NCBI RefSeq assembly: GCF_035207705.1
Contig: NZ_CP128187.1
Coordinates: forward strand, 186,001-250,000
Direction of reading: 5' to 3'
Length of the DNA: 64,000 bases
DNA from: Maribacter sp. BPC-D8
GTDB taxonomy: Bacteria; Bacteroidota; Bacteroidia; Flavobacteriales; Flavobacteriaceae
Within the stretch, counting starts at the first letter, position 1, and each line of letters begins with the position of its first letter. The notes beneath the pieces are model-generated. The model was not told the origin of the DNA. It searched no databases and saw nothing but the letters and a program-made list of their open reading frames with translations. A program made the translations under genes and the position numbers. Below are positions 6,261 through 27,700 of the stretch, one piece after another.

Positions 6261-6488
6261 TTATACTTGTTTGCTTTGATTTGCATTTAATCGATCAGGT
6301 ATTATGTTTACACGTGTTTGGGGCATATTTAGATATCTACTTACAATGAAAAGAACAGTAGTTACATCTAATATTAGGCGCTACACAACACTTTTTCTCA
6401 TAACAACTTAAGTCTAAATATATTTACCTAGGAATAGCGTCAATAAAATCTGTTGGCGAATAAGCTTAGTTATTTGAAGGTCTATAGC

Positions 6489-9400
6489 ATGTTGTATAAC
6501 CCAGTAAAATTCTTTTACGTTTTAGTATCAGTACTTTTTTTCTGTACGCTAAATCTAAGAGCTCAGAATATTGTTGTCAACCCATCAACTGATCTTCCAA
6601 CTGAGGTTATCGCTTGTGGTGATGCGTCAACATTTAGTTTTAGGTTATATGGCACTACCTCTGGCAATGAACAAGTGAGTGTTCAGTTGCCTAGTCAATC
6701 TGAATTTTTAGGGCTTACTTCACCTTTAGCAGGGGTTATTGTAGATTCATCTAATCCTAATAAACCGGTATTTACTGTTAGTACGCCGCTAATTGGTTCT
6801 ATAAGTTTTATAGATATATCATACACAGTTCAGACAGGGTGTTCGGCAATGGTCGATCCTGAAATTGAACATACACTTGTCAGTAACTCTTCTATTTCAA
6901 CTACTGTTGATTATCCATCAGTGTTGTATTCTTCTTTAGAAGTCGATAATGCTATTATACCTCTGTCGGGTTCATTAAGAATTAATGAAACTCAAGAGTT
7001 TACCTTTACAATTGGTAACTCCCCAGTAAATTCTAATGCCTACAGTAATAATGTTCTGGCTTATATTGAACATTCTGACAATATTTCTATCACATATGAT
7101 GGTACGGGAAATTTTTCTCAAGGTATATCGGTAGGGGATATGGTCACAGATACTTTAGAATTAAATGCTGGAGAGATTTCGGCTATAGGGGATAATGATT
7201 CTCGCTTTGAAGAAAATGAGAATATTTCAATAACTGTAAAGGCTAAACTTCTCAATTGCCCATCTGGTGCAGGAGAAACAATTACATACCAATCAGCCTA
7301 TGGTGGTTGTATTACAGGTGCTGATTCTTGCGAAACAGGTAATACCTCTACCTCAGGGATAGCCTTGGCTTCTGGAGCACCAGATTTATATACTAGAGTA
7401 GTCAAAAGAGCCTGGCCAGGATTGTCCACTACCGATACCGCTGAATTTTTATTGCGGAATGATGGTACAGGTGCTGGTGACATCTATAACCTTACGCTTG
7501 ATTTAGGTTTTAGTAATGGAGGTGCGACCTATATTCCGACGGATTATAATATTTATACTTGGTCTAATTTCAATGTAGATGGAAAATCTTTTCCCAATCA
7601 GGGAGCAGAAGGTAGTTTTGCAGATTTTCAATTGACAACAGATCCTGATGGGGCAGGAGTAGGTTTAGAAGATTTAGACGGTGATGGTTTTTTTGATGAT
7701 CTGCCAGTTGGTAATTCATTGATTTTAGAGGCGGAGTTAGCATATAATTATTTATTAGATTCAAATAATGACACCGCTTGTGATCGCATGAATGCAGGTT
7801 ATTCGATGGTACGTTGGGCTTATGAATACACAGATCAATGTGGTAATGCAACAAGTTTAAATGTGCCGAATAATGGATTGAATACTTGGCGACCTTGGAG
7901 TTTTTATAATACGCAATCGATAGCAACTAATATTAATTCATCTAGCGGAAGTGCTAATTTTGGTCCTGGAGATACTTTTGATTTTTATATAAGTACTTCA
8001 AGTAGTCAAACACCAACGACAACCAGTATTCCTGGTATGCATTGGGAAGTTCACTATACCTTGCCCCCAGGTATTATACCTAATGGTAATGGATTATGGG
8101 GTTCAGAGCCTTTTAACTTACTAAGTTTCGATTCAGGTACTGGTCTTGCTATATATTCCTCTAATTCAGCACCTACGTATGGTTATTTAATTAGTAGAAA
8201 TCCTCAGGTTCCATTAATGGTTGATCCAACCTGTTCGGGTAGTTTTGCTGGAGGCATATCTTACGAATATCATTTAAAAGGTGATTCCACATATGAACCT
8301 ATTCACATTTGTGAAGACGGTCCTACGTTTACAGTTACTTGCCCAAGTGGTGGACCATCGGTTTGCGTATCTAACTTTTCACTTGATCGTACTACGTTGG
8401 GGTATACTGATATGAGCGAGACCACGCCTATTTCAATAAACACGCCCGGTCTTCGCTTAGATCATGTTCTGGAAGGGGATATGGTTAGATGGCATGTTGA
8501 GATTGATGTGAATGAAACAAATCTTTCTTCTGCTAAAGCACTTCTTGAATATGATACTAATAATTGGTTTGGTACACAATCGGATGGAGGTATAAAAGCA
8601 ATACAAGTAGAATACCTTCCAAATGGTGGAGGGTCATCAACAATATCAAATAATTTAGGTCAGTATTCTTATATTCAGAATAATGGTGGGAAAAGTAATC
8701 ATTCAGTAGATATATTAGGTGGCGATTTTTCAGCAATTATACCAGGACTTGGTGATAAATACATCATTGATGTAGATTTAAAAGTTTCTGAAAATAGTTC
8801 TATATCTTATACTAGGTATATGCCAATGACCGGAATTTTGGTTTCATCTCCTGTAACTTCTACGGCTAATTCAACTGAACATACTTGTAATTTTCTTACG
8901 GAAGAATTTGGAATCTTAGCTTATAAAGATGTGCCGACCACACAAGTGGTTCAACAAAGTTTAACCATTGATGGTTGTAATGAATTTGGAATGGGAATAC
9001 GGTTTCATCATGCAACCTATTCGATTTTAGGAGATCTTTTTCCTAATGAATTTCGAAATTTTGCTATACCTAAAGTAGTAGATATTCTAGTTCCGGTAGG
9101 CGTAGATTATGTACCTGGTACTTCAAGTTATAGAGGTTATGGAGAGTTTATACATGACATTACAGACCCTGTTATAACTTATAATGCAGAACCTGGGTTT
9201 CATAGGTACAGATGGACGAATGATGGCTCTTGGTCAAAAGAAAAAGCTTCTGCTAGTTACGCAATTAAAGATGTTAATTTTAATGTTGTTGCAAATTGTA
9301 CAATTGAAGATTGGTCTTTTTCTGGTGAAAGATTGGGTATTATTGTTTTGCCAAGTACTGAGTTTGAAATTTTTAGAAATGTAAGCATACCAGGTAGGTC

Positions 9401-12056
9401 TATCAATATGCAAAGATTGACCAACGTGAGAAATACACAGTATTTGCCCCTAAGTTATACCGTAAGTTCACCTACACCTACAATTTCTACAAATACGCAA
9501 AATGCAGCATGGGTGGTTGATATTAATAATACGACATCGGGCGGGGCTTCTCTACAAAACACGTGGATTGCCATAGAGATTACAAATAATAACATTGTAC
9601 CAACCCTTTGGGATAATACAACAGAGATCCCTCTTATCGGCTATGGTACTGGAAAATATTGGGCGCAAGTGGGAGACATTTCTAGTGCTGGTAAACAATT
9701 AGAAATTCGGTCAGACGATTTCACTGTTTGCGGTACAGATAGTTTTGATATTCGAGTAGGTCAAAATTGTAGTCAGTATCCTATTGACCCCGATACGGGA
9801 TACCCTTTAGGGAGTTCTGGTAGTAATTATATCTGTAAAGAAGAAGTGATTCAACTTTCGTTAAGTACTCAAAATCCTTCTATAAATGTAACTACCGCTC
9901 TTGGCGTACCTCCGGCAACTTATGATTTTTGCGATGTTGTACCTTATTCAATAGACGTGAATAATGCTGCCAACGGTTTTGCTTATGCCTTGGCTGCCGA
10001 TATAAAATTACCTGTAGGCATGGTACTCGATAATACTTCAGGGGTTTTGACTTATAACGCAGTAGATTATGCAATAGGTTCAGGTCTAATAATATTTAAT
10101 GCGGGTACAAATACATATTCAATAGATATTTCTGCAATTGTTGGTAGTCCTATTAGTGGTGCTAATGGTCTACCAGGTGTATCTGTTCCAGAGCCTAATG
10201 AATTTAATGTGAATTTTGAATTAGCGTTTACTTGCGATTATGTATCTGGCAGTAAGATAATCACGCAAATAAATGCAGAGTCTGGTTGTCAACAACCCAT
10301 TGATCCTAATGATGGACAAAGTGAAATTAAGACCAACCCAGTAAATGTCACTCAGGTACCTTCTAATATTGATTATGACATTTCGGTCATTTCAAACGAT
10401 AATGCTGTTCAAGCTTGTAATGATACTGAAGGTATTTCAGTAGAAATAACCAACCAGGGTATTGAAAGTGATGGGGATATAGAATTTATTGTTGCTACAA
10501 TTGACGATGCATTTAATTACGTATCAGGTTCGTATGTAGCTGGCACTAACGGTCCTTCCGCAGAGCCCACGGTATCAACCGATGCAGTAGCGGGAACTCG
10601 TGTATTAAAATGGCAAATCCCTGATGGAGTTGGGGTCACATCTCTTATTGCCTTCGATTTTGAAATTGAAGTTGTTTCACCTGAAGATGTTAGTTGTCAA
10701 AATTATGATTTAAATGTAGCTACGCGAATAGAACAAAGTATTGATTGTTCAGGTTCAGGTGGACCAAGTTGTCCGGTAGTTCAAAGTGTTACAGCGCAGA
10801 CCGATGAAACTATTTCCGTAGAAAAATCTAATTTGGTTATAAGTTCAACATCTACAGTTGCTACAGTCAGTGGTAATGATCAGAATATCACTGCTAATTT
10901 TTCCATTGAAAATACTTCCGGTACAACAATGCCTACTGGTACTATTGTTTCAGCATATTATGACGCTGATGCTAACGGGGTTTTCTCCGCTGGAGATATT
11001 TTAATAGGTACTGAAACTATGACAGTTCAGGTTCCAGCGACTAGTACTGTTAATGGTGCTATTGACTTTACTACGTCACCAAATAGGGTTTGTAATATTT
11101 TAATTGTAATTGAATCATTAGATAACTCATGTGCTTGTACTACATCAGAAACAGAAATGATTCCTCCTACAGTTCTTTCAGGTTTAGCGGGATCGAACGT
11201 AACAGTTTGCGAAGTATCAGATGCTATTCAAATAGGTGAAACATCAAATCCAAATTATAGTTATACATGGTCAGGTGCAACGGCCGTTGAGACAGCTTAT
11301 TTAGACAATATAGGCGCAGCACAACCAATTTTTACATATTCAGGAGCAGATCTTACAATTACAACTAATTTAATATATACGGTTACCGCAACATTGCCTA
11401 ATGGTTGTACTATGTCAGATGATGTACAAGTAAAAGTATATCCTTCACCAAATCCTACCGTTAATATTACAGCGTCTAGTTGTAATTTAACTAATGGTGA
11501 AATTAACTTTGCTTTTCCTGATAATTCAAATAGATCTTCGATAGAGTTTAGTTTGGATAATCAGGTTTCTTATCAATCATCAGTTCCAGATAATAGCGGC
11601 TCTGTTACATATTCTAATTTAGCCTCTGGTACATATCATTTATGGGCGAGGTGGGGTAATAACCAATGTCCGGTAGATTTAGGGGAGCATATTATTTCTG
11701 ATATCCCAGAATCTACCATTGATATACAACCAGTAACACAGTTTGTTTTTGTAAATAACAATGCTGTTTTTAGCGTGAATACGACTAATGCAGACACTTT
11801 TCAATGGCAAGTAAGCATAGATGGCGGGGTTACATTTAATGATATTTCTAATGGACCTAATTATACAGGTACTCAAACAGAAACCTTAAATGTTATTGGG
11901 GTAGACTTAACTCAAAATAATTATCAATATAGAATCTTAGCTTCAAATGCTGCTACCTCTTGTGATGCTCAAATCTCAAATGCAGCTTTGCTAACGGTTC
12001 AAGTTAAATCTGTGATTACCAACAAAAGAATAACGTATCGTGTAAAATTGAATTGA
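6489..12056 (+). CDS. Giant secreted surface protein with C-terminal VITNKRITYR tag
   Basis: About 1855 aa. An upstream in-frame TTG (6453) exists, but the ATG at 6489 gives a good signal peptide (MLYNPVKFFYVLVSVLFF...LRAQ), so I chose it. Most of the protein is beta-rich, Asn/Ser/Thr-rich and resembles DUF11/choice-of-anchor type extracellular domains. Near the C-terminus are a PKD-like stretch (PNYSYTWSG), a SprB-repeat-like stretch (ASSCNLTNGEINF) and an Ig-like domain (TNADTFQWQVSIDGG). It has no recognisable type A or type B T9SS domain; it ends VITNKRITYRVKLN, shared with the next two proteins. No catalytic motif was seen. Function inferred: large surface or matrix protein, exported by Sec and possibly T9SS. 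Confidence 0.82.
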   Translation: MLYNPVKFFYVLVSVLFFCTLNLRAQNIVVNPSTDLPTEVIACGDASTFSFRLYGTTSGNEQVSVQLPSQSEFLGLTSPLAGVIVDSSNPNKPVFTVSTPLIGSISFIDISYTVQTGCSAMVDPEIEHTLVSNSSISTTVDYPSVLYSSLEVDNAIIPLSGSLRINETQEFTFTIGNSPVNSNAYSNNVLAYIEHSDNISITYDGTGNFSQGISVGDMVTDTLELNAGEISAIGDNDSRFEENENISITVKAKLLNCPSGAGETITYQSAYGGCITGADSCETGNTSTSGIALASGAPDLYTRVVKRAWPGLSTTDTAEFLLRNDGTGAGDIYNLTLDLGFSNGGATYIPTDYNIYTWSNFNVDGKSFPNQGAEGSFADFQLTTDPDGAGVGLEDLDGDGFFDDLPVGNSLILEAELAYNYLLDSNNDTACDRMNAGYSMVRWAYEYTDQCGNATSLNVPNNGLNTWRPWSFYNTQSIATNINSSSGSANFGPGDTFDFYISTSSSQTPTTTSIPGMHWEVHYTLPPGIIPNGNGLWGSEPFNLLSFDSGTGLAIYSSNSAPTYGYLISRNPQVPLMVDPTCSGSFAGGISYEYHLKGDSTYEPIHICEDGPTFTVTCPSGGPSVCVSNFSLDRTTLGYTDMSETTPISINTPGLRLDHVLEGDMVRWHVEIDVNETNLSSAKALLEYDTNNWFGTQSDGGIKAIQVEYLPNGGGSSTISNNLGQYSYIQNNGGKSNHSVDILGGDFSAIIPGLGDKYIIDVDLKVSENSSISYTRYMPMTGILVSSPVTSTANSTEHTCNFLTEEFGILAYKDVPTTQVVQQSLTIDGCNEFGMGIRFHHATYSILGDLFPNEFRNFAIPKVVDILVPVGVDYVPGTSSYRGYGEFIHDITDPVITYNAEPGFHRYRWTNDGSWSKEKASASYAIKDVNFNVVANCTIEDWSFSGERLGIIVLPSTEFEIFRNVSIPGRSINMQRLTNVRNTQYLPLSYTVSSPTPTISTNTQNAAWVVDINNTTSGGASLQNTWIAIEITNNNIVPTLWDNTTEIPLIGYGTGKYWAQVGDISSAGKQLEIRSDDFTVCGTDSFDIRVGQNCSQYPIDPDTGYPLGSSGSNYICKEEVIQLSLSTQNPSINVTTALGVPPATYDFCDVVPYSIDVNNAANGFAYALAADIKLPVGMVLDNTSGVLTYNAVDYAIGSGLIIFNAGTNTYSIDISAIVGSPISGANGLPGVSVPEPNEFNVNFELAFTCDYVSGSKIITQINAESGCQQPIDPNDGQSEIKTNPVNVTQVPSNIDYDISVISNDNAVQACNDTEGISVEITNQGIESDGDIEFIVATIDDAFNYVSGSYVAGTNGPSAEPTVSTDAVAGTRVLKWQIPDGVGVTSLIAFDFEIEVVSPEDVSCQNYDLNVATRIEQSIDCSGSGGPSCPVVQSVTAQTDETISVEKSNLVISSTSTVATVSGNDQNITANFSIENTSGTTMPTGTIVSAYYDADANGVFSAGDILIGTETMTVQVPATSTVNGAIDFTTSPNRVCNILIVIESLDNSCACTTSETEMIPPTVLSGLAGSNVTVCEVSDAIQIGETSNPNYSYTWSGATAVETAYLDNIGAAQPIFTYSGADLTITTNLIYTVTATLPNGCTMSDDVQVKVYPSPNPTVNITASSCNLTNGEINFAFPDNSNRSSIEFSLDNQVSYQSSVPDNSGSVTYSNLASGTYHLWARWGNNQCPVDLGEHIISDIPESTIDIQPVTQFVFVNNNAVFSVNTTNADTFQWQVSIDGGVTFNDISNGPNYTGTQTETLNVIGVDLTQNNYQYRILASNAATSCDAQISNAALLTVQVKSVITNKRITYRVKLN

Positions 12057-12389
12057 TCTTTAGTTCTAGTTTAATAATTTTTTGACACTATTTACAAGTG
12101 TAGTATCACCTTTTTAGATTACCTAAAACTCAAGTGCGTTTAAAGTGATTACTATTTAATCAAGTCGCTGTTAGTATCATATTTTTAGGTGTCTAATAGA
12201 TTAAATGCAAGCATAAAAAGCAATTTAAACAGTAATTTTAAAAGGCTTAACAGCAGTATTTTAGGCGTACACTTGCTAATAGCCTTACTTCACAACAAAT
12301 TTTAGGGATGACCTCAACTCCTAGTTATTTTTACAGATGATATGCATTATAGATTGTTTTTGCATTTCAATGCCCCCATTAATTTGATT
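12057..12389. other. Long AT-rich intergenic leader
   Basis: About 333 bases without a credible gene between two giant genes. It is AT-rich with no strong terminator hairpin. The only item of note is CTTCACAACA at 12288, 102 bases before the chosen start downstream, which resembles a decamer upstream of two neighbouring giant genes. Confidence 0.5.
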
Positions 12390-15300
12390 ATGAGATTAAG
12401 ACATTTTTGTTATTTATTAGTTCTATTGTGTGCCACAAGTTTCTATGCCCAAGAAACTTACTTGGATACATTTACCAGTACTTTTTACGGTAGTAATGAA
12501 GGGACACAAAATTTTAGTTCTGATTGGATTGAAATTGGAGATGACGGTAATGCCTGGGGTGGTCGTATACAAATTACTGGTGGTCAGTTACGTTTTAGAG
12601 ATATAGATAATAGATACATTTATAGATTTGTTCCTTTGGCAGGGGCTTCATCTGCAACCTTAACTTTAGATTATGATGCCAATTCTGCAGGGGGTGAGGC
12701 AATCGATGTATATATTTATAATGCCGACAGCAACCAATGGGGTTTTGTTCAAAGAATTAATAGTGGAACAGGTTCATTAACCTATAATTTAACCGCTGCG
12801 CAAATAGCATCAAATCCTGCAATTATATTTTATCGTGGTGATACTAGTTGGCAAACAAATGATGCCATTTATATAGATAATGTACAGTTTAGTGCCACTT
12901 TTGGGTCAGAAGTACTAGTAGATGATGTTACCGTTAATGAAAATGCTGGAACTGCAACATTTACCGTAAGGCACGGTGGTAGTGCGGCAAGCGGACCTTA
13001 TAGTGTAAATTATACAACTTCGAATATATCTGCGATTGCGGGTCAAGATTATACGGCATCAAGTGGAACTTTAAATTTTGACGGTACCATTTTTGATACC
13101 GAAACCATAACTATTTTTATTACAGATGATACTATATTTGAAGGCGATGAAACATTTCAATTTTCATTTACGTCAACTTCAGATTCTAATATAGATATTA
13201 CAGATACGGCGATTGGTACAATTTTAGCCAATGATGCTTTAATTATAACAGATGGAGGCTCTGCAACAACTTGTGATGACATATTTTTAGATTCTGGAGG
13301 TATAAGTAATTATTCTGATAATGAAGATAAAGTGTATACTATCTGTCCAGATACGGCTAATAATTACACGCAGGTAAGTTTTGATCAGTTCGACGTTATA
13401 CCCGGAGATATTCTTTATGTGTATGATGGTAATAATACCGGTGCTACTTTATTAGGGCAATATGATAATGACAATATACCTACCCAAATTTTTGCGACGA
13501 ATGCTAATGGTTGTCTAACTTTTAGATTTACATCCAATAATAATACTACAGGTAATGGTTGGCAAGCAACTGTTAGTTGTTCACCACCAGGACCAAAAAT
13601 TGTTGTAGAAGATGTTTATGTAGATGAAGATTCTGGTAGTGCAATTTTTACTGTAACCCACGTACGTGATCGTCATGGATACAGCTGGTTTTTTGGTTTT
13701 ATTGAAACACCGTTTACCGTAAATTATATGGTAAGCGATGGTACAGCTAGTAATGGTAGTGATTATATATCAGTAAACGGTACACTTACTTTTACAGGTG
13801 AGGTGGGCAATGTTCAAACTTTTTCAGTACCTATTGTAGATGATGGTGTACCTGAATTAGTGGAGTATTTTACCGTTGGTTTTTCAGACGCTACAGCCCA
13901 ATATGCTTCTGTAGATTATAGCGACACTGCAGATGGTTATATTAACTCGCAAATTTTAGCAAATGACCCATTAACTTTATTTCAAGAATTTGATGGTTAT
14001 TATGACTATTCTACAACAGGTGGATCATTAAGAACAAATGATAACAACACAGATGCATGTTCAATAACAACATCGTCATCAAATACGTTGATTGCACCTA
14101 TACCAAATACAGGTACTATTAAAAAAGCATATTTATACTGGGCGCATTCAAGTACAGTAGTTGATGGTGCAGTTACTTTTGAAGGGCAAACGGTAAATGC
14201 TAATTATCAATACCAAACAACACTTACCAATAGAAATTTCTATGGTTATGTAAGTGATGTTACAGATATAGTGGCAGGTGTAGCAGATCCATCCACCAAT
14301 GTTTTTGATTTTTCAGGGTTGTCTATAGATAACTCAAATACGTATTGCTCATCGGCAACTGTATTAGGAGGTTGGACATTGTTCGTTTTCTACGAAGATC
14401 CTAACCTTCCTGCTGTAAACATTAACCTGTATCAAGGTTTTGATGGTTTAAGTAATGACGGAAATTCATTTACATTGGATGGTTTTTATGCCATTGCCGG
14501 TGCTGGTGCAAAAGCATCATTTTTATCATGGGAAGGAGATTCAACCTTAGATGGTAACAGTTCTGGAACAACCAACCCTAATGGAGAAAGATTATCTATT
14601 ACAAATCAGGCAAATCAACCACCTTTTGTATTATCGGGAGATGGTGGTCAAACAGGAAATAATGCCTATAATTCTACTATGTATGATAATACTACAACAC
14701 CAGATTATAATGTAAATACAACATATGGTGTAGATTTAGATACATATGATATTTCTACCTATATATCCCCTGGAGATTCCCAGGTAACAGCAAATGTAGA
14801 TGTAGGGCAAGATTTCTTAATTTCTGCAGCGGTAGTATTAAAAGTGCCATCGAACTTAATTGCAGGTACTGTTTTTGAAGATGTCAACTACGGTGGTGGG
14901 CAAGGTAGAAATATGACAAATGCCAATGGCGTTGGTATATCTAGTGCTATTGTTGAATTATACGAAAGCGATGGTACTTTCGTAAGAAGAACGAACTCAA
15001 AAGTAAGTGGGGATTATAGTTTTGGTGGTATGGCAGATGGCAATTACTATGTAAAATTGGTAAACTCTACTGTTAGATCAACTAGGGCCAACGGTATAAA
15101 CTGTACTACCTGCGTTCCTGTACAAACTTTTAGAACGTATGGCGATGTTACAAATACTATTGAGGTTTTAACTGAAATAGGAGGTACTGATCCATCAGCA
15201 ATTTCAGATTCTGCTCTTGGAGTCTTTGACGATTCACAAAGTTTATCATTGGTAAGTATAGCTAGTAGTGGTGTAGCCAATATAGATTTCGGATTCAATT

Positions 15301-16844
15301 TTAATACTATTGTAAATACAAACGAATTTGGTCAAGGCTCTCTTGAGCAATTTATTTTGAACAGTAATACATTAGGAGAAACAGGTCTTGATATAGAGGC
15401 TAATTCAATATTTGACCCAGCAGTGGAAGAAGATGTCTCTATTTTCATGATACCACCAACAAGTGATAGTTTTGGTAGAACAGCAGATGTAAATTATAAT
15501 GCTGGTGGATATTTCGATTTTATTGTAAGTAATTCTACGACTTTATCTACAGTAATTGGTACAAATACTATTATTGATGGAAGAACACAAACAGCATTCT
15601 CTGGAGATACAAACACTGGTACTGTTGGGGCTGGAGGCACAGGTGTAGGTGTTTCAAATACTGCATTGACAAATTATGACAGACCAGAAATACAAGTAAA
15701 TAGAACAAATGGCGACGTTTTTAAATTAAATGGAGATAATGTTACCGTTAGAAATATTTCGGTTTATTCTAATAGTAATGCAGGTATTCAGGTCTTAGGA
15801 GGAACAGCAAGCGTAACCAACAATTTAATAGGTGTAAATGCTCTAGGTACCACTTCTGGTAATATTGATTACGGTGTAGAACAAACTGGTGGTGAAGCTA
15901 CAATAGCATCTAATTATATAGCATCTAACACTGTTGCGGGTATTTATATTGATGGAGGCACAAGAAGTAACATTGAACTTAATCATCTTGAAAATAATGG
16001 AGATACCGCTTGCTCTGATAATATTTTAATTGAAGATGGCAGTACCATTATTGTACAAAATAATTTAATTGAAAACTCAGCTTCTTCAGGTATTGAAATT
16101 AATAATGTAAATGATGTAGTAGTCACAAATAATAGTATATCTACTTCTGGACAAAATGGAGGTAATTGCACCATAAGTTATGATGGAATGGCAATAAAAT
16201 TAAATGGTAACGGTGCACTAATTAATCAAAATAGAATATTTTCAAATGGTAGTGAAGGTATTGCGGTACTTTCAGGAACTTCAAATACTATAAGTCAAAA
16301 TTCTATTTACGCAAATGGTACAGTAACGCCAAGTTTAGGTATAGATTTAGATATGGACGGTGTAACATTAAATGATACTTCAGATTCAGATTCAGGTCCT
16401 AATAATTTAGAAAATTTCCCTGTTATTAACTCTGCTTTTATTTCTGGAACCAATCTAGTCGTAACCGGGTGGACTTCATCAGGGTCAACCGTTGAGGTAT
16501 TTTTTACTGATATAAACGAAGGCACAGCTGTTTTAGGTGATAATCAATTTGGATTAACTCAAGATTATGGTGAAGGTCAAATTTTTATAGGTAAAGCGAT
16601 AGAAGGTAGTTCAGATGATCAAGATGCAACATCATCATTATATCTTGACGATGATGGAAATACTGATAATACAAATAAATATAAGTTCGTATTCCCTTTA
16701 CCATCAGGTACTGCTGTAGGAGATTTAATAACCACTACAGGAACAAGGTCAAATTCAACTTCAGAGTTCTCACCAGAAGTTGTAATTAAGACTTATACGG
16801 TAATTACCAATAGAAATATTACGTATCGTATAAAAAGTAATTAA
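12390..16844 (+). CDS. Giant secreted protein: Calx-beta, CUB-like, SdrD_B-like and beta-helix domains
   Basis: About 1484 aa from the ATG at 12390, which opens a clean signal peptide (MRLRHFCYLLVLLCATSFYAQ); an ATG at 12342 would add 16 residues. Domains in order: jelly-roll-like N-terminal region, Calx-beta (~180-280, DETFQFSF), CUB-like domain (~285-395), second Calx-beta (~400-515), a DUF3344-like stretch (AYLYWAHSS, GWTLFVFYED), SdrD_B/prealbumin-like domain (~830-940, VFEDVNYGG), then a right-handed parallel beta-helix (~1090-1330) with repeating N-N-x-I/L turns. The C-terminus is VITNRNITYRIKSN, directly after non-Ig sequence. Calx-beta domains usually bind calcium. Inferred role: surface adhesin or matrix component. 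No canonical T9SS domain was seen. Confidence 0.83.
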   Translation: MRLRHFCYLLVLLCATSFYAQETYLDTFTSTFYGSNEGTQNFSSDWIEIGDDGNAWGGRIQITGGQLRFRDIDNRYIYRFVPLAGASSATLTLDYDANSAGGEAIDVYIYNADSNQWGFVQRINSGTGSLTYNLTAAQIASNPAIIFYRGDTSWQTNDAIYIDNVQFSATFGSEVLVDDVTVNENAGTATFTVRHGGSAASGPYSVNYTTSNISAIAGQDYTASSGTLNFDGTIFDTETITIFITDDTIFEGDETFQFSFTSTSDSNIDITDTAIGTILANDALIITDGGSATTCDDIFLDSGGISNYSDNEDKVYTICPDTANNYTQVSFDQFDVIPGDILYVYDGNNTGATLLGQYDNDNIPTQIFATNANGCLTFRFTSNNNTTGNGWQATVSCSPPGPKIVVEDVYVDEDSGSAIFTVTHVRDRHGYSWFFGFIETPFTVNYMVSDGTASNGSDYISVNGTLTFTGEVGNVQTFSVPIVDDGVPELVEYFTVGFSDATAQYASVDYSDTADGYINSQILANDPLTLFQEFDGYYDYSTTGGSLRTNDNNTDACSITTSSSNTLIAPIPNTGTIKKAYLYWAHSSTVVDGAVTFEGQTVNANYQYQTTLTNRNFYGYVSDVTDIVAGVADPSTNVFDFSGLSIDNSNTYCSSATVLGGWTLFVFYEDPNLPAVNINLYQGFDGLSNDGNSFTLDGFYAIAGAGAKASFLSWEGDSTLDGNSSGTTNPNGERLSITNQANQPPFVLSGDGGQTGNNAYNSTMYDNTTTPDYNVNTTYGVDLDTYDISTYISPGDSQVTANVDVGQDFLISAAVVLKVPSNLIAGTVFEDVNYGGGQGRNMTNANGVGISSAIVELYESDGTFVRRTNSKVSGDYSFGGMADGNYYVKLVNSTVRSTRANGINCTTCVPVQTFRTYGDVTNTIEVLTEIGGTDPSAISDSALGVFDDSQSLSLVSIASSGVANIDFGFNFNTIVNTNEFGQGSLEQFILNSNTLGETGLDIEANSIFDPAVEEDVSIFMIPPTSDSFGRTADVNYNAGGYFDFIVSNSTTLSTVIGTNTIIDGRTQTAFSGDTNTGTVGAGGTGVGVSNTALTNYDRPEIQVNRTNGDVFKLNGDNVTVRNISVYSNSNAGIQVLGGTASVTNNLIGVNALGTTSGNIDYGVEQTGGEATIASNYIASNTVAGIYIDGGTRSNIELNHLENNGDTACSDNILIEDGSTIIVQNNLIENSASSGIEINNVNDVVVTNNSISTSGQNGGNCTISYDGMAIKLNGNGALINQNRIFSNGSEGIAVLSGTSNTISQNSIYANGTVTPSLGIDLDMDGVTLNDTSDSDSGPNNLENFPVINSAFISGTNLVVTGWTSSGSTVEVFFTDINEGTAVLGDNQFGLTQDYGEGQIFIGKAIEGSSDDQDATSSLYLDDDGNTDNTNKYKFVFPLPSGTAVGDLITTTGTRSNSTSEFSPEVVIKTYTVITNRNITYRIKSN

Positions 16845-17051
16845 AATTAATACAGATAATTCCTACAAAAAAAGCTTGTTAGCTCTGTGTTTTATTGAGG
16901 TTTAAAGATTAAACCACATTTTTTGACTAGTTAACCTTACCCTTGTCTTCATTGGCAACATTAATTTCCTAGCCTTCTAAAAACAGCGGATTTTTATAAT
17001 AAGAAATCATGCTAAATAATTCCCCCTTATTGGCATTATAAAAATATTTCC

Positions 17052-20000
17052 ATGGGGGTCTCTCTTATTAAGAGGATAAATTTGAGTTATATAGGCTTTA
17101 TTATAATAGTCTTATTATCAAGTTTAAAAATACAAGCACAAACAACTTTCACTGAAAGTGCAGCTTCGTTTGGTTTAGATTTAGGTCAACCAAAAGATGG
17201 TGGTCATGCTTGGTCAGATTTTGACAATGATGGAGATTTAGATGTTCTCGTTCTAGAGAATAATAATAATAGCGGAGTAAAAAGTTTTTTAATGCGTAAC
17301 AATGGTAACAACACGTTTACCAATGTGCAACCTACCTTAGTACCTGGTCTGTTAGGTGACTGGGCAGAAAGACAAGCTGCATGGGGAGACATTAATAATG
17401 ATGGCAGACCAGATTTTTTAATAAACTCTTCAGGTAATAACAATGCTAGAAAAGCAATACAAATTTTTATTCAGAACGCTAATGGCACCTTTGGTGATGG
17501 TATAGGTGGTTCAGCTCCAATAACCATAGGTAGATCAGGTGCGACCATAGTTGTGCCAGGGGTTAATTCTGAAGGAGTCGGTTTCTTTGATTTTGAAGGA
17601 GATGGTGATTTAGATATTTTCTTTGATAATCATGATATGGGTATAGAATTATTACGAAATAATTTTATAGACCACACTAGCCATACAGTAGTTAACCCAG
17701 CCCCTAATGTTTTATTTACCCATATCACAACAGGTAATGGAAGTGGGGTCACTGAGTTTGGGTTAAATCAATTTGCTACAGATGGTGATTATGGTACAGC
17801 GGCAGATGTTAACGATGATGGTTGGGTAGATATTTTTATGCGTAAGCGAGATGAAAATGACTTTTTCTTAAATCAAGGTGGTAATTTTTCTAATGGTGCA
17901 GATTTAGGGCAAGCAGCAAATAATAACAAAGGTGGTAACGGACTTTGGGATTTAGATAATGATGGAGATTTAGATGCTGTATGGACAGAAAACGGACAAA
18001 CCCAGATTCATAGAAATGATGGAGGCGGAGTATTTACGGCATTAGGTGCAGTGTCTTTTCCTGGTTTACCACAACCGGGTAATTTAAATAATGGTAGTTC
18101 AGGTGCCAGAATTGATGCATTGGCTGGGGGCGATATCGATAATGATGGCGATATCGATATTATTCTGGTAGGTAATAGTAGAAGTTATTTATACATCAAT
18201 CAACTGAATAGTCCTACACCCGCACCTGGGGTAATAGGTAGTGGTTCGGCAATGAGTTTTTCTTTAGATTCTCAGCAATTTAACTCAGGTAGAGATGGTG
18301 AGGGTACCACCATGGTAGATGTTGATGATGATGGCGATTTAGATATTTATATCAATATAAATAATAATAGCAATCAACTATATATTAATAATTTACCTGC
18401 GGCAAATAGAAATAACCACCTACTTATAGATGTTACTGAAGATAGGGGTGCCAATGGCTCTACAGGAGGTTTCTTAGGTAGAGTAGCTATTGGAACAAAC
18501 GTTTTAATTAGAGATTGTTCTGGTAATATAGTCAGCGGTTTGCGACAGGTAAATGGAGTATATGGTCATGGTACGCAACAACCAGAAGAAGTACATTTTG
18601 GTTTGCCTTTAGGTGAAAATGAAACCTATATTATAGAAGTTCATTATCCCAATTTTTATGATTCTTCCAGTGGAACCGGTATTTCCAGATTGGTAGCCAC
18701 CGCCATTGCACAACCAAGTACAATTGCAGGTACAAACCATTATACACTTACTACTACTGATGCGGAAGCTATAGAAAACCCTAATGCCCCTATTGCAGAA
18801 GATGACGAAGTGCGAGTAGCCTATGGAAATTCTGTTTCTGTTCAAATTCACCTATTTATAAACGATTCTGAACCAGATGGCGAAAATTTTTCAATTGAAA
18901 ACATAACGCAGCCACCTGTCGGTACTGTTGTTGTCGATGATGCCGAAAATGGTATTGTAACCTACACGTATACTGGAGTTACACCGTTTCCTGGTACAAC
19001 TAGTTTTGACTACACTATAACAGATTCGGCAGACTCCCTTTGTCCTTCTTTGGGTAAAAGTGATTCGGCTACGGTACGTATTATTGAGCGATGTACAGAT
19101 CCATCAGGGATAGATACTGATGGGGATGGAATAAATGATGTATGTGATCTTGATAATGATAATGATGGTATTCTTGATTTTGATGAAGGTTGTGGTAATT
19201 TAATCATCAATCCTTCTTTTGAGATGCAAGATTTTACGGATCCGGCAGCTTTTCCAGATGGATTTACAGATGGGTCAGGAACGTTTATAGGCGCTACATA
19301 TAATTCAAATCAATTAACAGGCTGGGACTACACGACCAATTTAGATGGTTGGGTAGGTTTAGGTAGTCCTTCTTGGACTCCAGATATTTATGCACCAGCA
19401 TATCATGGAAATCAATATGTAGATGTTACTGGTAATAATAATGTTACAGGAGGTATAAATAATACGATTTCTCAAGAAGTAAATACAGTAATTGGTACAA
19501 CCTATACCGTCTCCTTTCATTGGGGCGAAGATATTGGGCATGAAGAGGGGGCACCAGTAACATTAGATATAGACATTATAGATTCGGGTAATAGTCACCT
19601 TATTAACGAAACCCTAAATTATACAGCAGAGGGCTTGGTTGCAGGTATAAGAGGACCCAAGCAATGGTTTTATTACGAACGTAATTTTGTTGCGACCACT
19701 ACAACCACAACAATACAATTTTATGCCATTCCAGATGGTACATCTAATGGTGCAGCTATAGATTTGATTAGTATAGCGCCAATAACACAATGTTTAGATA
19801 CTGATGGTGATGGCACCCCAGATGCGTTAGATTTAGATAGCGATGGTGATGGATGTTTTGATGCCTTGGAAGGAAATGATAGCTTAGATTTTGCAGATTT
19901 AAACGGAGATGGCAGTATTTCTGGAGCTGTTGATGCCAATGGTGTACCTACCGCTGTAAGTGGAGGGCAAGGAAAAGGTAGTGCAAGAGATTATACCTTT

Positions 20001-21293
20001 ACCTCAAATTTGTGTGATGATGATGGTGACGGGGTAAACAATGCGAATGACAAGTGTCCCTATTTTGATGATGCCATTGATAGTGATAATGATGGTGTGC
20101 CAGATGGTTGTGATGTAGATGATGATAATGACGGTGTTACTGATTGCGATGAATCTTCAGAGAGTATAAGAAATGAGTTTGCATGGACCTTGAATAGTCC
20201 TGCAGGGAACCTTAATATGGATACCAATTACACACCAGAAGTAAATGATTGGATTTTAGACAGCACAGATGCCATGCTGTTAAATACCCCAAGTTTTTAT
20301 GCTAATGGCAGTAATTTACACATTCAGCCATTAGCATCAATTAGCAAAGAAGATGCCTTAGCTAAAGGAGAGTATGTTGAGATTTCCTTTACAACAGGTA
20401 CTGAGCTTTCTTCTTTTGAATTAAGAGAGATCAGATCAGGTTGGTATCAGCCAAATCAAGGAGACTCGTACCGTACGGCAACGGCTTATAAAAAAGCGGG
20501 GTCGAACGCATGGTCTACATTATCTACAGATGTTTTACATACAGATAATGGAGGTAGCTACGCAACATTTCAACATATGGCAAATGGTTCGGTCTATTTA
20601 GAGGCAAATACTAAGTATGTCTTTAGATTTTTCGCGTATGGTCAATTAGACGACTCTTCACAAACGTATTCGGTTTTTGATGATGTAGCTTTTGTTTTTA
20701 CAGCTTGTAGAAGTAATAATTTAGACGGCGATGGCTTACCAAATCATCTTGATGATGATAGTGACGGCGATGGTTGTAATGATGCAGATGAAGCTTACGC
20801 AAACACCTCTGCAGATTCTGATAATAATGGCATGTATGGTTCAGGTTCACCAGCAGTAAATTCTGATGGATCTGTTATAGCGGCATCCTATGAATCTCCA
20901 GCAGATGGTGATTCTAATGGTATATATGATTTTTTACAAGTTACAACAGCTCTAGTAGTTACAGATCAACCACAAAATCAAACTGTATTTACAGGAGAAG
21001 ATGCAATTTTTACATCAACTGTTACTAATGCAGACAACTATCAATGGCAAGTTAGTATAGACGGTGTAAATTATACTAATCTGGTAAATGATTCAGAGTA
21101 TTCAGGTACGGAAACTTCAACTTTGACGGTTTTGAATGTACCAAAACAAAAGGAAGGATATTCATATAGATTACTCGCTTCTAATTCGAGTAATACATGC
21201 GCAGAAGTAGCTTCTAATGCAGCATTACTATTTGTAAAAGTTAGAACTGTAATTACAAATAAGAGAATTACATATCGTATAAAACCGAACTAA
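17052..21293 (+). CDS. Giant secreted FG-GAP/VCBS and TSP3 repeat protein with C-terminal VITNKRITYR tag
   Basis: 1413 aa with a signal peptide (residues ~1-30, ending KIQAQ). Residues ~45-440 are FG-GAP/VCBS beta-propeller repeats with DxDxDGxxD loops (DFDNDGDLDV, DINNDGRPDF, DLDNDGDLDA), followed by an ASPIC/UnbV-like segment (YGHGTQQPEEVHFGL). Then come an Ig/cadherin-like domain (~575-680), TSP3 repeats (DTDGDGINDVCDLDNDND), two jelly-roll or choice-of-anchor-like modules split by TSP3 blocks, and an Ig-like domain (TNADNYQWQVSIDGV) like the one ending the protein at 6489. The last 14 residues are VITNKRITYRIKPN. Most loops are typical calcium sites. Likely a surface or extracellular structural protein; no enzyme motif was seen. 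Confidence 0.84.
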   Translation: MGVSLIKRINLSYIGFIIIVLLSSLKIQAQTTFTESAASFGLDLGQPKDGGHAWSDFDNDGDLDVLVLENNNNSGVKSFLMRNNGNNTFTNVQPTLVPGLLGDWAERQAAWGDINNDGRPDFLINSSGNNNARKAIQIFIQNANGTFGDGIGGSAPITIGRSGATIVVPGVNSEGVGFFDFEGDGDLDIFFDNHDMGIELLRNNFIDHTSHTVVNPAPNVLFTHITTGNGSGVTEFGLNQFATDGDYGTAADVNDDGWVDIFMRKRDENDFFLNQGGNFSNGADLGQAANNNKGGNGLWDLDNDGDLDAVWTENGQTQIHRNDGGGVFTALGAVSFPGLPQPGNLNNGSSGARIDALAGGDIDNDGDIDIILVGNSRSYLYINQLNSPTPAPGVIGSGSAMSFSLDSQQFNSGRDGEGTTMVDVDDDGDLDIYININNNSNQLYINNLPAANRNNHLLIDVTEDRGANGSTGGFLGRVAIGTNVLIRDCSGNIVSGLRQVNGVYGHGTQQPEEVHFGLPLGENETYIIEVHYPNFYDSSSGTGISRLVATAIAQPSTIAGTNHYTLTTTDAEAIENPNAPIAEDDEVRVAYGNSVSVQIHLFINDSEPDGENFSIENITQPPVGTVVVDDAENGIVTYTYTGVTPFPGTTSFDYTITDSADSLCPSLGKSDSATVRIIERCTDPSGIDTDGDGINDVCDLDNDNDGILDFDEGCGNLIINPSFEMQDFTDPAAFPDGFTDGSGTFIGATYNSNQLTGWDYTTNLDGWVGLGSPSWTPDIYAPAYHGNQYVDVTGNNNVTGGINNTISQEVNTVIGTTYTVSFHWGEDIGHEEGAPVTLDIDIIDSGNSHLINETLNYTAEGLVAGIRGPKQWFYYERNFVATTTTTTIQFYAIPDGTSNGAAIDLISIAPITQCLDTDGDGTPDALDLDSDGDGCFDALEGNDSLDFADLNGDGSISGAVDANGVPTAVSGGQGKGSARDYTFTSNLCDDDGDGVNNANDKCPYFDDAIDSDNDGVPDGCDVDDDNDGVTDCDESSESIRNEFAWTLNSPAGNLNMDTNYTPEVNDWILDSTDAMLLNTPSFYANGSNLHIQPLASISKEDALAKGEYVEISFTTGTELSSFELREIRSGWYQPNQGDSYRTATAYKKAGSNAWSTLSTDVLHTDNGGSYATFQHMANGSVYLEANTKYVFRFFAYGQLDDSSQTYSVFDDVAFVFTACRSNNLDGDGLPNHLDDDSDGDGCNDADEAYANTSADSDNNGMYGSGSPAVNSDGSVIAASYESPADGDSNGIYDFLQVTTALVVTDQPQNQTVFTGEDAIFTSTVTNADNYQWQVSIDGVNYTNLVNDSEYSGTETSTLTVLNVPKQKEGYSYRLLASNSSNTCAEVASNAALLFVKVRTVITNKRITYRIKPN

Positions 21294-21704: not shown

Positions 21705-24700
21705 ATGGCCATCGAATTATTGAAGATGAAATTGAATATTAAAAGTATGAAGAGTCAAACTAATACAACACTAAGTAATGCCATTAAATTTATAATGGTA
21801 CTATTTACTTTACTAATATCAGGTATCTCTATGGCACAGACCACTGTGACTTTAGAAGACCAATGTAATTGTGAAGTACTGCAGGGTACCGATGTATCAG
21901 CACCCGGAGTCGCAACTCCGGCAGGTGCAGATTTAGGAGATCTGTATGTAAATACAGATACCGGAACTATTTACTATTGGAATGGAACTACATGGGAGTT
22001 AACATCTACGGATGATCAGCAATTACAAAATTTCACTTTTGATGCCTTGACGAATATCTTATCTCTAGAAATCGAAAATGGTAATATAGTAACTGCAGAT
22101 TTATCGAGTCTTAATCTAGTGGAAACCTTAACTACTATTATTACCAATACGGACGGTACGTTTACGTATACCGATGAAGATGGCGTTGATACGATCATCG
22201 ATGTAACGGATCTAGAGACTTTGACAACAATCGCTTTAAATGCGGACAATACGAATATCGATTATACTGATGAAGATGGTGTAGTTACGCAATTAGATCT
22301 ATCTGCGATCGTAGCGAACTTGGAAGCGTTGACTACAGTGGTAGCCAATACGGACGGTACGTTCACATATACGGATGAAGATGGCATTGATACAATTATC
22401 GATGTAACTGATTTAGAAACATTGACAACAATCGCTTTAAATGCGGATAATACGAATATCGATTATACGGATGAAGACGGATTGGTAACCCAATTAGATC
22501 TATCGGCAATCGTTGCGAACTTGGAAGCGTTGACTACGGTAGTAGCCAATACGGACGGTACGTTCACATATACGGATGAAGATGGCGTTGATACAATCAT
22601 CGATGTAACGGATCTAGAGACATTGACAACAATCGCTTTAAATGCGGATAATACAAATATCGATTATACGGATGAAGATGGTGTAGTTACGCAATTGGAT
22701 CTATCGGCAATCGTAGCGAACTTGGAAGCATTGACTACGGTAGTAGCCAATACTGACGGTACGTTCACATATACTGATGAAGATGGCGTTGATACAATTA
22801 TCGATGTAACGGATCTGGAGACATTGACAACAATCGCTTTAAATGCGGATAATACGAATATCGATTATACGGATGAAGATGGTGTAGTTACGCAATTGGA
22901 TCTATCGGCTATCGTAGCGAACTTGGAAGCTTTGACTACGGTAGTAGCCAATACGGATGGTACGTTCACATATACTGATGAAGATGGCGTTGATACGATT
23001 ATCGATGTTACCGATCTAGAGACCTTGACAACAATCGCTTTAAATGCGGATGATACGAATATCGATTATACTGATGAAGACGGATTGGTAACCCAATTAG
23101 ATCTATCTGCGATCGTAGCGAACTTGGAAGCATTGACTACAGTGGTAGCCAATACGGACGGTACGTTTACGTATACAGATGAAGATGGCGTTGATACGAT
23201 TATCGATGTAGCGGATCTAGAGACTTTGACAACAATCGCTTTAAATGCGGATGATACGAATATCGATTATACGGATGAAGACGGATTGGTAACCCAATTA
23301 GATTTATCTGCGATCGTAGCGAACCTGGAAGCGTTGACTACGGTAGTGGCCAACACGGACGGAACGTTCACATATACCGATGAAGATGGCGTTGATACAA
23401 TTATCGATGTAACGGATCTGGAGACATTGACAACAATCGCTTTAAATGCGGATAATACGAATATCGATTATACGGATGAAGATGGTGTAGTTACGCAATT
23501 GGATCTATCGGCAATCGTAGCGAACTTGGAAGCTTTGACTACGGTAGTAGCCAATACGGATGGTACGTTCACATATACTGATGAAGATGGCGTTGATACG
23601 ATTATCGATGTTACCGATCTAGAGACCTTGACAACAATCACTTTAAATGCGGATGATACGAATATCGATTATACTGATGAAGACGGATTGGTAACCCAAT
23701 TAGATCTATCTGCGATCGTAGCGAACTTGGAAGCATTGACTACAGTGGTAGCCAATACGGACGGTACGTTTACGTATACAGATGAAGATGGCGTTGATAC
23801 GATTATCGATGTAGCGGATCTAGAGACTTTGACAACAATCGCTTTAAATGCGGATGATACGAATATAGATTATACTGATGAAGACGGATTGGTAACCCAA
23901 TTAGATCTATCTGCGATCGTAGCGAACCTGGAAGCGTTGACTACGGTAGTGGCCAACACGGACGGAACGTTCACATATACCGATGAAGATGGTATTGATA
24001 CGATTATCGATGTAGCGGATCTAGAGACTTTGACAACAATCGCTTTAAATGCGGATAATACGAATATCGATTATACTGATGAAGACGGATTGGTAACCCA
24101 GTTAGATTTATCTGCAATCGTAGCGAACTTGGAAGCATTGACTACGGTAGTAGCCAATACGGACGGTACGTTTACGTATACAGATGAAGATGGCGTTGAT
24201 ACGATTATCGATGTTACCGATTTGGAGACCTTGACGACAATCGCTTTAAATGCGGATAATACGAATATCGATTATACTGATGAAGACGGCATAGTTACGC
24301 AATTGGATCTATCTGCGATCGTTGCGAACTTGGAAGCGTTGACTACGGTAGTAGCCAACACGGACGGTACGTTTACGTATACCGATGAAGATGGCGTTGA
24401 TACGATTATCGATGTTACCGATTTGGAGACCTTGACGACAATCGCTTTAAATGCGGACAATACGAATATCGATTATACGGATGAGGACGGCGTAGTTACG
24501 CAATTGGATCTAACGGCTATCGTAGCGAACCTGGAAGCGTTGACTACGGTAGTGGCCAACACGGACGGTACGTTTACGTATACTGATGAAGATGGCGTTG
24601 ATACCATTATCGATGTAACTGATCTGGAGACCTTGACCAATATTGTTAATAATAATGACGGAACTATCACGTATACTAATGAAGATGGAGTAGATCAAAC

Positions 24701-27700
24701 TATAGATTTAGTAAGTAATGTTGCAAATAATGATATTCAAGTTGGAGCAGATGGTGGTTTATACTTAAATGTAGCTTCGGTAACGATTTCAGAAACTATC
24801 ACATCTCTAACAGACAATGCAGACGGAACATTTACCTATACAAATGAAGATGGCGTAGTAACTATATTTGATGCTAAACGTTCTACCGTATTAGATAATG
24901 GCGATGGTACTTTTACGATCACAGATGATTCAGGAAACTCGGCAGTAGTAGATACAAACAATACGGTAACCACATTGGTTGATAATGGAGACGGTAGCTT
25001 TACCTATACCTCAGAAAATGGTACGGTAACTACTTTTACAGAAACATTATCAACTTTAGTAGATAATGCAGACGGAACATTTACATATACAAATGAAGAC
25101 GGAGTAGTAACTACATTTGACGCTAAACGTTCTACAGTTTTAGATAATGGCGATGGAACTTTTACCATTACGGATGATTCAGGAAACTCAGCAACAGTAG
25201 ATACTAACAATACAGTAACAACCTTAGTTAATAATGGTGATGGTAGTTTCACGTATACATCAGAAGATGGTACAGTAACAACATTTACAGAAACATTATC
25301 AACTTTAGTAGACAATGCAGACGGAACATTTACATATACAAATGAAGACGGAGTTGTAACTACATTCGATGCTAAGCGTTCTACGGTTTTAGATAATGGA
25401 GATGGTACATTCACAATCACAGATGATTCTGGTAACTCGGCAGTAGTAGATACTAACAATACGGTAACTACATTGGTAGACAATGGTGATGGTAGTTTCA
25501 CGTATACATCAGAAGATGGTACAGTAACAACATTTACAGAAACATTATCAACTTTAGTAGACAATGCGGACGGAACATTTACATACACTAATGAAGACGG
25601 AGTTGTAACTATATTTGATGCTAAACGTTCTACCGTATTAGATAACGGAGACGGAACATTTACAATCACAGATGATTCAGGAAACTCAGCAACAGTAGAT
25701 ACCAACAATACGGTAACTACATTGGTAAATAATGGAGATGGTAGTTTCACGTACACATCAGAAGATGGTACGGTAACAACATTTACAGAAACATTATCAA
25801 CTTTAGTAGATAATGCGGACGGAACATTTACATACACTAATGAAGACGGAGTAGTAACTACATTCGATGCTAAGCGTTCTACAGTTTTAGATAATGGAGA
25901 TGGTACATTCACAATCACAGATGATTCTGGTAACTCGGCAGTAGTAGATACTAACAATACGGTAACTACATTGGTAGACAATGGTGATGGTAGTTTCACG
26001 TATACATCAGAAGATGGTACAGTAACAACATTTACAGAAACATTATCAACTTTAGTAGACAATGCGGACGGAACATTTACATACACTAATGAAGACGGAG
26101 TTGTAACTATATTTGATGCTAAACGTTCTACCGTATTAGATAACGGAGACGGAACATTTACAATCACAGATGATTCAGGAAACTCAGCAACAGTAGATAC
26201 CAACAATACGGTAACTACATTGGTAAATAATGGAGATGGTAGTTTCACGTACACATCAGAAGATGGTACGGTAACAACATTTACAGAAACATTATCAACT
26301 TTAGTAGATAATGCGGACGGAACATTTACATACACTAATGAAGACGGAGTAGTAACTACATTCGATGCTAAGCGTTCTACAGTTTTAGATAATGGAGATG
26401 GTACATTTACAATCACGGACGATTCAGGAAACTCAGCAACAGTAGATACTAACAATACAGTAACAACCTTAGTTAATAATGGAGATGGTAGTTTCACGTA
26501 TACATCAGAAGATGGTACAGTAACAACATTTACAGAAACATTATCAACTTTAGTAGATAATGCAGACGGAACATTTACATATACAAATGAAGACGGAGTT
26601 GTAACTACATTCGATGCTAAGCGTTCTACCGTATTAGATAACGGAGACGGAACATTTACAATCACAGATGATTCAGGAAATTCCGCAACAATAGATACTA
26701 ACAATACAGTAACAACCTTAGTTAATAATGGTGATGGTAGTTTCACGTATACATCAGAAGATGGTACAGTAACAACATTCACAGAAACATTATCAACTTT
26801 AGTAGATAATGCTGACGGAACATTTACGTATACAAATGAAGATGGCATAGTAACTACATTCGATGCAAAGCGTTCTACAGTTTTAGATAATGGCGATGGT
26901 ACTTTTACGATCACGGATGACTCTGGTAATGCTGCAACTATTGATACAAATCAGGTTGCAGGATCATTAGTTAATAATAACGATGGTACTATAACATATA
27001 CAGATGGTACAGGTTCTTCTCAAACTTTAGGTTTGGTAAGTGCTAATGCTAATAATGATATCCAAGTTGGAACAGATGGTGGTTTATACTTAAATGTAGC
27101 ATCTGTTACAATTGATGAAACATTATCAACTTTAGTAGACAATGCGGACGGAACATTTACCTATACCAATGAAGATGGCGTAGTAACTACATTCGATGCA
27201 AAACGTTCTACAGTTTTAGATAATGGCGATGGTACTTTTACAATCACGGACGATTCAGGAAACTCGGCAGTAGTAGATACTAACAATACGGTAACTACAT
27301 TGGTAGACAATGGTGATGGTAGTTTCACGTATACATCAGAAGATGGTACAGTAACAACATTTACAGAAACATTATCAACTTTAGTAGACAATGCAGACGG
27401 AACATTTACATATACAAATGAAGACGGAGTTGTAACTATATTTGATGCTAAACGTTCTACCGTATTAGATAACGGAGACGGAACATTTACAATCACAGAT
27501 GATTCAGGAAACTCAGCAACAGTAGATACTAACAATACAGTAACAACCTTAGTTAATAATGGTGATGGTAGTTTCACGTATACATCAGAAGATGGTACGG
27601 TAGCAACATTTACAGAAACATTATCAACTTTATTAGACAATGCGGACGGAACATTTACATACACTAATGAAGACGGAGTAGTAACTACATTCGATGCTAA

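Follow-up and report, generated by a model that had tools for sequence, protein, structure and literature searches.

Why do the products of three neighboring genes end in the same short peptide, whatever comes before it? The question is raised by a 64-kb stretch of DNA from Maribacter sp. BPC-D8 (called the window here; positions 186001-250000 of a 4.78-Mb genome in one contig), in which three consecutive genes on the + strand encode large secreted proteins that share a 14-residue C-terminal tag of the pattern (V/I)ITN(R/K)xIT(Y/H)R(V/I)xxN. The tag reads VITNKRITYRVKLN at 12012-12053, VITNRNITYRIKSN at 16800-16841 and VITNKRITYRIKPN at 21249-21290, with a stop codon directly after each copy; coordinates and stop codons agree with an earlier note on this DNA, which had claimed such a tag on these proteins. 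The tag is real, widespread in one bacterial family, and selected at the protein level. Sequence evidence gives good support to a C-terminal signal that is undescribed, conserved independently and carried by secreted proteins, because of its position, the unrelated protein bodies that bear it, its protein-level conservation, the signal peptides of those proteins, the lack of any library match, and the type B domains found at the same end in homologues. It is probably a short linear sorting or anchoring signal, standing in for the C-terminal domain of type IX secretion system (T9SS) cargo.

Chance was rejected as the origin of the tag by shuffling of the window and by comparison of open reading frame (ORF) ends. 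A degenerate DNA pattern for the core, allowed up to three mismatches, occurs at three places in the window, all of them exact and all of them the tags; dinucleotide shuffles searched in the same way averaged 0.44 matches, and one of the 100 shuffles had as many as three. Of the 397 ORF ends compared in these loci and their relatives, the tag is present on 42, with 9-14 of 14 identities to the consensus, while the best of the remaining 355 has 6 of 14, and no internal copy occurs in 244,066 residues of those loci. With up to two mismatches, the pattern finds two places in the whole genome besides the three window tags. One is a variant, VITNRRITIRATSF, at the C-terminal end of a 682-aa IgGFc-binding/DUF11 protein outside the window; the other does not share the reading frame of the large ORF at that site and was taken as chance.

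Across 149 genomes of the family Flavobacteriaceae the pattern is found in 23 (a reversed control pattern matched once). All 44 matches were read, and 41 of them, in 20 genomes, are C-terminal tags with 4-6 residues to the stop codon. Three single matches were set aside as chance before counting: one has a stop inside the core (G119), one is followed by 26 residues in a 76-residue frame (G071), and one, VITNNKITLSFI, ends a 300-aa frame but is unlike other tags after the core (G101). Genome G057, with a near-tag VITNRNMTYRVNKN, was also left out of the 20 tagged genomes. In a phylum sample of 395 genomes, the pattern is present in four, each of them one of the 41 that belong to this family, and absent from the 354 genomes outside it. 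A GTDB-wide scan returned at least 117 stretches holding at least 131 unique pattern matches. Of the 131 listed, 126 stop 2-5 residues past the ten-residue core (108 of them exactly four); in the other five, all from Aquimarina, a further domain comes after the tag. Stretches listed carry titles from Maribacter, Aquimarina, Tenacibaculum, Zobellia, Cellulophaga, Arenibacter, Allomuricauda/Flagellimonas, Robiginitalea, Eudoraea, similar genera, or simply "Flavobacteriaceae"; these we take to be marine Flavobacteriaceae, and one record listed is named Cytophaga sp. FL35. The earlier note called for a profile search across Bacteroidota; in these pattern searches nearly all matches are C-terminal, and those of the phylum sample lie in one family, but its claim that the tag always stands at the very C-terminus fails for the five Aquimarina proteins among the matches listed.

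These five Aquimarina copies have an architecture of their own. Tag plus domain (L071:6847-7326, L087:5426-5905, L105:1-438, L128:692-1171 and L174:6508-6987) follows at least two unrelated bodies, and the domain is common to the five proteins, as if the two were one mobile unit. The domain has no Pfam or NCBIfam family above its cut-off.

The 126 terminal copies listed give the consensus T/S, V/I-I-T-N-R-R(K)-I-T-Y(H)-R, V/I, N/K, any residue, N. The search pattern itself set or restricted ten of these positions; the flanking ones were free, and there conservation is 0.83 for the T/S before the core, 0.95 for the V/I that follows it, and 0.83 for the last N. At the invariant residues every synonymous codon occurs, which rules out a DNA- or RNA-level element, and the three window tags differ among themselves at synonymous sites. 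Searches chosen by the body of a protein lead to the tag as well. The C-terminal body of the second window protein, searched without its tag, has homologues in 14 of the 149 genomes, and the tag lies within seven bases of the match in all 14. In a larger set of 120 close homologues (from a 411-residue query that included the tag's 14 residues), 116 carry tags by regular expression, three carry one-residue variants, and one is truncated; nine of the fourteen tag positions are 0.92-1.00 identical there, against 0.64 for the body. Another 120 homologues, of a C-type-lectin-like body, were chosen without the tag, and 94 of them end in it by regular expression. The 26 others comprise 13 near-tags recognized by eye, five with another short tail, and eight that are apparently truncated or run into other domains. 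At the tag position the tagless lectin-like homologues P0254, P0258, P0259, P0260 and P0262 (one named Ancylomarina) have a tail P(I/S/V)P(V/I)G(V/I/L)FH(E/D), possibly a second C-terminal tag.

Descent alone could produce a shared ending if a functionless cassette end were spread by recombination between neighboring genes, and tandem copies do adjoin in the window and in several relatives. This explanation is already largely refuted by the unrelated bodies that bear the tag and by solo genes far from the cluster; the use of every synonymous codon and the near-invariant core in body-selected sets speak against it too, and we rate it as very improbable.

The bodies are indeed diverse. Tagged protein 1 (6453-12056; 1867 aa from a TTG, with the first ATG at 6489) matches no Pfam family above its cut-off, and has an immunoglobulin (Ig)-like domain before its tag. 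Tagged protein 2 (12342-16844, 1500 aa) contains Calx-beta, CUB, SdrD_B and beta-helix matches, and a beta-helix/beta-sheet region stands before its tag in place of an Ig-like domain. Tagged protein 3 (17052-21293, 1413 aa) contains FG-GAP repeats and Big_9, and its tag again follows an Ig-like domain, which aligns with that of protein 1 at 46% identity. Domain scan, modeling, and alignment therefore bear out the earlier description of Ig-like domains before two tags and unrelated sequence before the middle one. Elsewhere the tag follows Ig-like, beta-helix/TSEFSP, DUF11, Big_9, Ig_7 and C-type-lectin-like bodies. Its conservation on its own, also claimed beforehand, is upheld by these unrelated preceding domains and by the protein-level conservation.

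With an Ig-like domain directly ahead of the tag in two of the three window proteins, the tag might be taken for the last strand of that domain. An AlphaFold model of the protein 3 tail (48 sequences) has a confident Ig domain whose strands end at residue 107 of 124; the predicted local distance difference test (pLDDT) score drops from more than 90 to roughly 67 across the tag, which is modeled without secondary structure. The 50 structural matches listed for this model are Ig and T-cell-receptor chains, with one phage capsid chain, and include no T9SS domain; the tag lies outside the fold. In the model, then, an ordinary Ig fold is complete without the tag, and the tag was rejected as a part of it. 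The same tag on beta-helix, DUF11, Big_9, Ig_7 and lectin-like bodies also argues against a last strand, and we give that explanation almost no credence. The tag of protein 2, modeled from 34 sequences (mean pLDDT 73), is likewise unstructured, with 67 and 52 over its two blocks. The tag is thus predicted to be flexible in both proteins.

Proteins that end in the tag look secreted. A signal-peptide-like N-terminus was called by our own sequence heuristic in 108 of the 119 tagged ORFs with both ends visible, against 113 of 227 neighboring control ORFs, so signal peptides are predicted, as expected; a transmembrane (TM)-like 19-mer past residue 100 occurs in 3 of the 119, against 22 of the 227 controls. 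The ORFs are 194-1888 residues long (median 894), some lengths being upper bounds because they run from stop to stop. What had been proposed as an undescribed signal for giant surface proteins is well supported as an undescribed C-terminal signal on secreted proteins, but large size is unnecessary: 56 of the 119 reach 1000 residues, and the shortest has 194.

Known signals are missing from the same ends. The tag in the window proteins is covered by no Pfam or NCBIfam match, and these libraries likewise give no type A or type B T9SS domain in those proteins, in line with the earlier claims that the motif has no named family and that its bearers lack both domains. None of 122 tagged tails (seven with fewer than 150 visible residues having been excluded) matches a T9SS model of NCBIfam at an E value of 0.1. 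Hidden Markov models (HMMs) made from the type A and type B domains of the same genome, in which 14 type A and 27 type B matches clear the cut-off, find nothing at the C-terminus of the 119 tagged proteins, and the type A HMM has internal hits only, in four of them. NF058595, considered as a known family for the tag, was rejected; its one weak match (L185, residues 13-50) is below cut-off and away from the tag. Six strings of the tag have no match in open-access PMC full text, a corpus distinct from subscription papers, bioRxiv, and supplements.

Homologues of a tagged protein show what can stand in place of the tag. The 642-aa IgGFc/DUF11 body of the fourth tagged protein of this genome has 41 matches in 31 of the 149 genomes. 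Three of the frames, 685-722 aa long, carry the tag at their ends (G000, G001 and G011), and in each of these genomes a type B-ended paralogue lies beside the tagged gene. Another 27, those paralogues among them, are long frames (1509-5284 aa) that end in a type B domain, scoring 27-125 bits (three below 40) with an HMM built from seven own-genome type B domains. Of the 29 tagless and readable copies of this body, 27 therefore finish in a known T9SS signal. In genome G135 the locus described below is present, with no tag by pattern, and the slot of the tag genes is filled by type B giants, each followed by its own porP. A homologue search with the small tagged protein of locus L040 found two tagged relatives and otherwise mostly short domain hits in larger frames, and no further case of replacement. 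A T9SS-linked sorting role for the tag is a well-motivated hypothesis.

The setting, shared by most tag genes, is a conserved locus of type B, PorP/SprF and PorE-like genes, here all on the + strand. It begins with a trio: a giant with a type B T9SS C-terminal domain (CHU_C/TIGR04131; 15-3284, its open frame running past the 5' edge of the window), a PorP/SprF family outer-membrane protein (PorP1, 3298-4251; PF11751, TIGR03519), and a PorE-like protein with TPR, PD40, carboxypeptidase-regulatory-like and OmpA regions (4252-6207), which scores too low to pass as a match to the PorE or CHU_0125 model of NCBIfam. The three tag genes follow, and then come a repeat and collagen-like giant of 3446 aa (21705-32045), a second type B T9SS protein (32078-34099), and a second PorP/SprF family protein (PorP2, 34105-35058), these last two by Pfam and NCBIfam. 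In relatives the usual order is the same, with one to four tag genes, and the genes ahead of the type B giant are presumably rpoB-rpoC-small gene-prfC; the loci of G143 and G086 are rearranged. The repeat giant comes after the tag genes in most related loci read. The earlier placing of the tagged proteins in a T9SS locus holds for this type B, PorP and PorE-like neighborhood, but the core T9SS genes are not part of it.

Co-occurrence with porP/sprF, a check that the earlier note proposed, is seen for PorP2. Matches to it of at least 450 bits are found in 19 of the 20 tagged genomes and in 1 of the 129 others (Fisher 8e-22, a value inflated by shared ancestry). In that sole untagged genome (G103) the region upstream is not assembled, since the contig stops inside the repeat giant. 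PorE-like matches of at least 660 bits are found in 18 of the 20 and in 3 of the 129 (G057, which has the near-tag, G077, and G135). Both thresholds were set by eye.

In the explanation we favor as probable, Sec signal peptides, inferred from sequence, would take the tagged proteins to the periplasm, where the tag would do the job of the type A or type B domain of ordinary type IX cargo. A shuttle barrel would recognize the C-terminus, take the protein from the SprA translocon, and hold it at the cell surface. The likeliest shuttle would be a PorP/SprF protein of the same locus, PorP2 or PorP1, with PorV as the alternative, and the PorE-like protein would be the cell-wall anchor. For the tagged proteins, then, we infer dependence on the T9SS, the identity of the partner, and retention at the surface.

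The main rival makes the tag a docking element: the tail would bind a surface complex, either the type B adhesin-PorP-PorE trio or the giant repeat fiber, and so assemble or retain proteins exported by another route. The position of the tag genes between trio and giant in most loci read suits this, as do the PorE-like counts and the predicted flexibility of the tail, and the type B-SprF-PorE operon of Flavobacterium johnsoniae is proposed as a static surface anchor in the discussion of PMC12618676. Against docking, some tag genes stand solo, away from the cluster (L035, L037 and L040), one tagged genome (G080) lacks the trio, no other outer-membrane export signal was noticed in the tagged proteins, and type B signals take the place of the tag in homologues of one body. 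We consider docking rather unlikely. As an obligatory partner of the tag, the trio is weakened by G080 and by G050.

How a sorting signal of this kind would compare with known ones depends on the class. The type B domain (TIGR04131/PF13585) is likewise C-terminal, belongs to large secreted adhesin-like proteins, occurs in loci with PorP/SprF and PorE-like genes, and ends the homologues of one tagged body. It has, however, about 85-100 conserved residues to the tag's 14, the two have no sequence similarity (p 0.27 and 0.45), and type B genes have a PorP/SprF shuttle, whereas no tag gene in the loci read has a porP directly after it; what follows is another tag gene, the repeat giant, a type B giant (L058), or unrelated genes, with PorP genes on either side of the block. 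According to PMC12618676, type B domains pair with cognate PorP/SprF proteins.

The type A domain (TIGR04183/PF18962), which uses a PorV shuttle, is also C-terminal, and its last strand, often T-K-K-hydrophobic, is loosely like the IT(Y)R(V) of the tag; it is a seven-stranded domain of 70-100 residues, and its HMM does not match the tag. The comparison used 13 of the 14 own-genome type A ends, another 32 type A ends (taken from those 30 fetched loci that scored best), and 7 of the 27 own-genome type B ends, and the likeness is unsteady. In a first test 45% of tags exceed the control 95th percentile; a permutation gives p 0.29 in one scoring; another scoring gives p 0.056 for all 45 type A ends, 0.024 for the 13 own-genome ones and 0.078 for the other 32, with 8, 3 and 11 of 233 control C-termini, respectively, scoring as well as the tags. 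Since these scorings disagree, we do not build on the likeness.

Type C (F. johnsoniae ChiA) resembles the tag as a third T9SS signal class found by sequence, but is a domain of about 100 residues; no T9SS model in NCBIfam 20.0 matched, a release in which inclusion of a type C model is unconfirmed. PEP-CTERM and LPXTG signals are short motifs at the extreme C-terminus of unrelated secreted proteins, as the tag is. Those motifs have a transmembrane stretch and a basic tail, whereas the tag core is followed by only 2-6 residues and a C-terminal TM segment is absent.

Reduced T9SS signals offer a precedent. According to PMC11285876 and PMC11969387, the last 22 residues of HBP35 hold a T9SS signal, and removing two C-terminal residues from RgpB abolishes its secretion; changing motif B of RgpB also stops secretion (PMC11969387). 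The short type A-like domains of Prevotella intermedia are likewise reduced C-terminal signals, but still have 40-51 residues with motifs B, D and E, and for type B more than 200 residues have been suggested (PMC11969387, PMC10202324). A different function would be processing, in which a PorU-like sortase would cleave before the tail and join the new C-terminus to a surface glycan. The start of the tag, T/S-(V/I)-I, is reminiscent of the cleavage region in P. intermedia, where the Ile at +2 is conserved (PMC11969387), and a cleavage site would account for tags ahead of a further domain in Aquimarina. The most conserved residues (TN..IT.R) would lie beyond a site of this kind, so that conservation points to recognition and not to cleavage, and we judge processing or covalent attachment to be improbable.

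Several observations weigh against a T9SS sorting signal, the explanation we prefer. At 14 residues the tag is far shorter than the C-terminal domains described in the papers cited, and it lacks the motif B needed in RgpB secretion (PMC11969387); its likeness to the last strand of type A domains varies with the scoring. It is not terminal in five Aquimarina proteins, where about 115 residues follow it. In the lectin-like set the whole tag is no better conserved than the body (0.71 against 0.74 identity), and only its T, N, I, T and R stay high, at 0.89-0.93. Among matches to the 642-aa body, the type B homologues hold hundreds to thousands of extra residues, two distant frames (742 and 751 aa) lack both the tag and a type B domain at their ends, and 9 of the 41 matches were unread to the end, being off the contig or stretch, masked, or unrecovered. 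As for partners, the trio is missing from G080, the tag gene of G050 lies apart from it, and the best PorP2 match in G143 reaches 390 bits. SprA is present in all 20 tagged genomes, and in 146 of the 149, so that co-occurrence of the tag with the T9SS is uninformative.

A bolder proposal, which we hold only tentatively, is that the tag forms a fourth type IX signal class, linear and just 14 residues long, with PorP2 as its dedicated PorP/SprF shuttle. Flavobacteriaceae would use it to bring a whole set of adhesin-like, lectin-like and repeat proteins to a single surface structure anchored by PorE. The T9SS signals described in the papers cited are domains of 40 to more than 200 residues. If true, a 14-residue signal would show the minimum that translocon or shuttle reads, would add currently unrecognized surface proteins to the secretomes of marine Flavobacteriaceae, and would provide a short handle for surface display.

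Further unusual endings and gene arrangements were seen along the way. The two distant frames of the 642-aa body (L367 and L368, 742-751 aa) have in common a third ending, ..V.KSNGEI(I/V)A.Y.C. The repeat giant at 21705-32045 ends in a ..DYN(T/S)LINVVFVVK region that recurs in several related loci; no Pfam family matches the last 150 residues at an E value of 1, the giant has no known T9SS signal, and this end may be another unrecognized C-terminal signal or a tip domain. At 49208-49792 the window encodes a secreted-looking 194-aa protein whose match to the type A T9SS domain is weak (23.9 bits against a cut-off of 23). Three closely similar pairs of PorE-like and PorP/SprF genes, apparently a repeated type B locus, lie on the same chromosome at G000:C1:2131508-2170537. 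In G086 the PorE-like gene by the tag gene (L041:3771-5975) is split over two reading frames, whether in reality or through assembly error.

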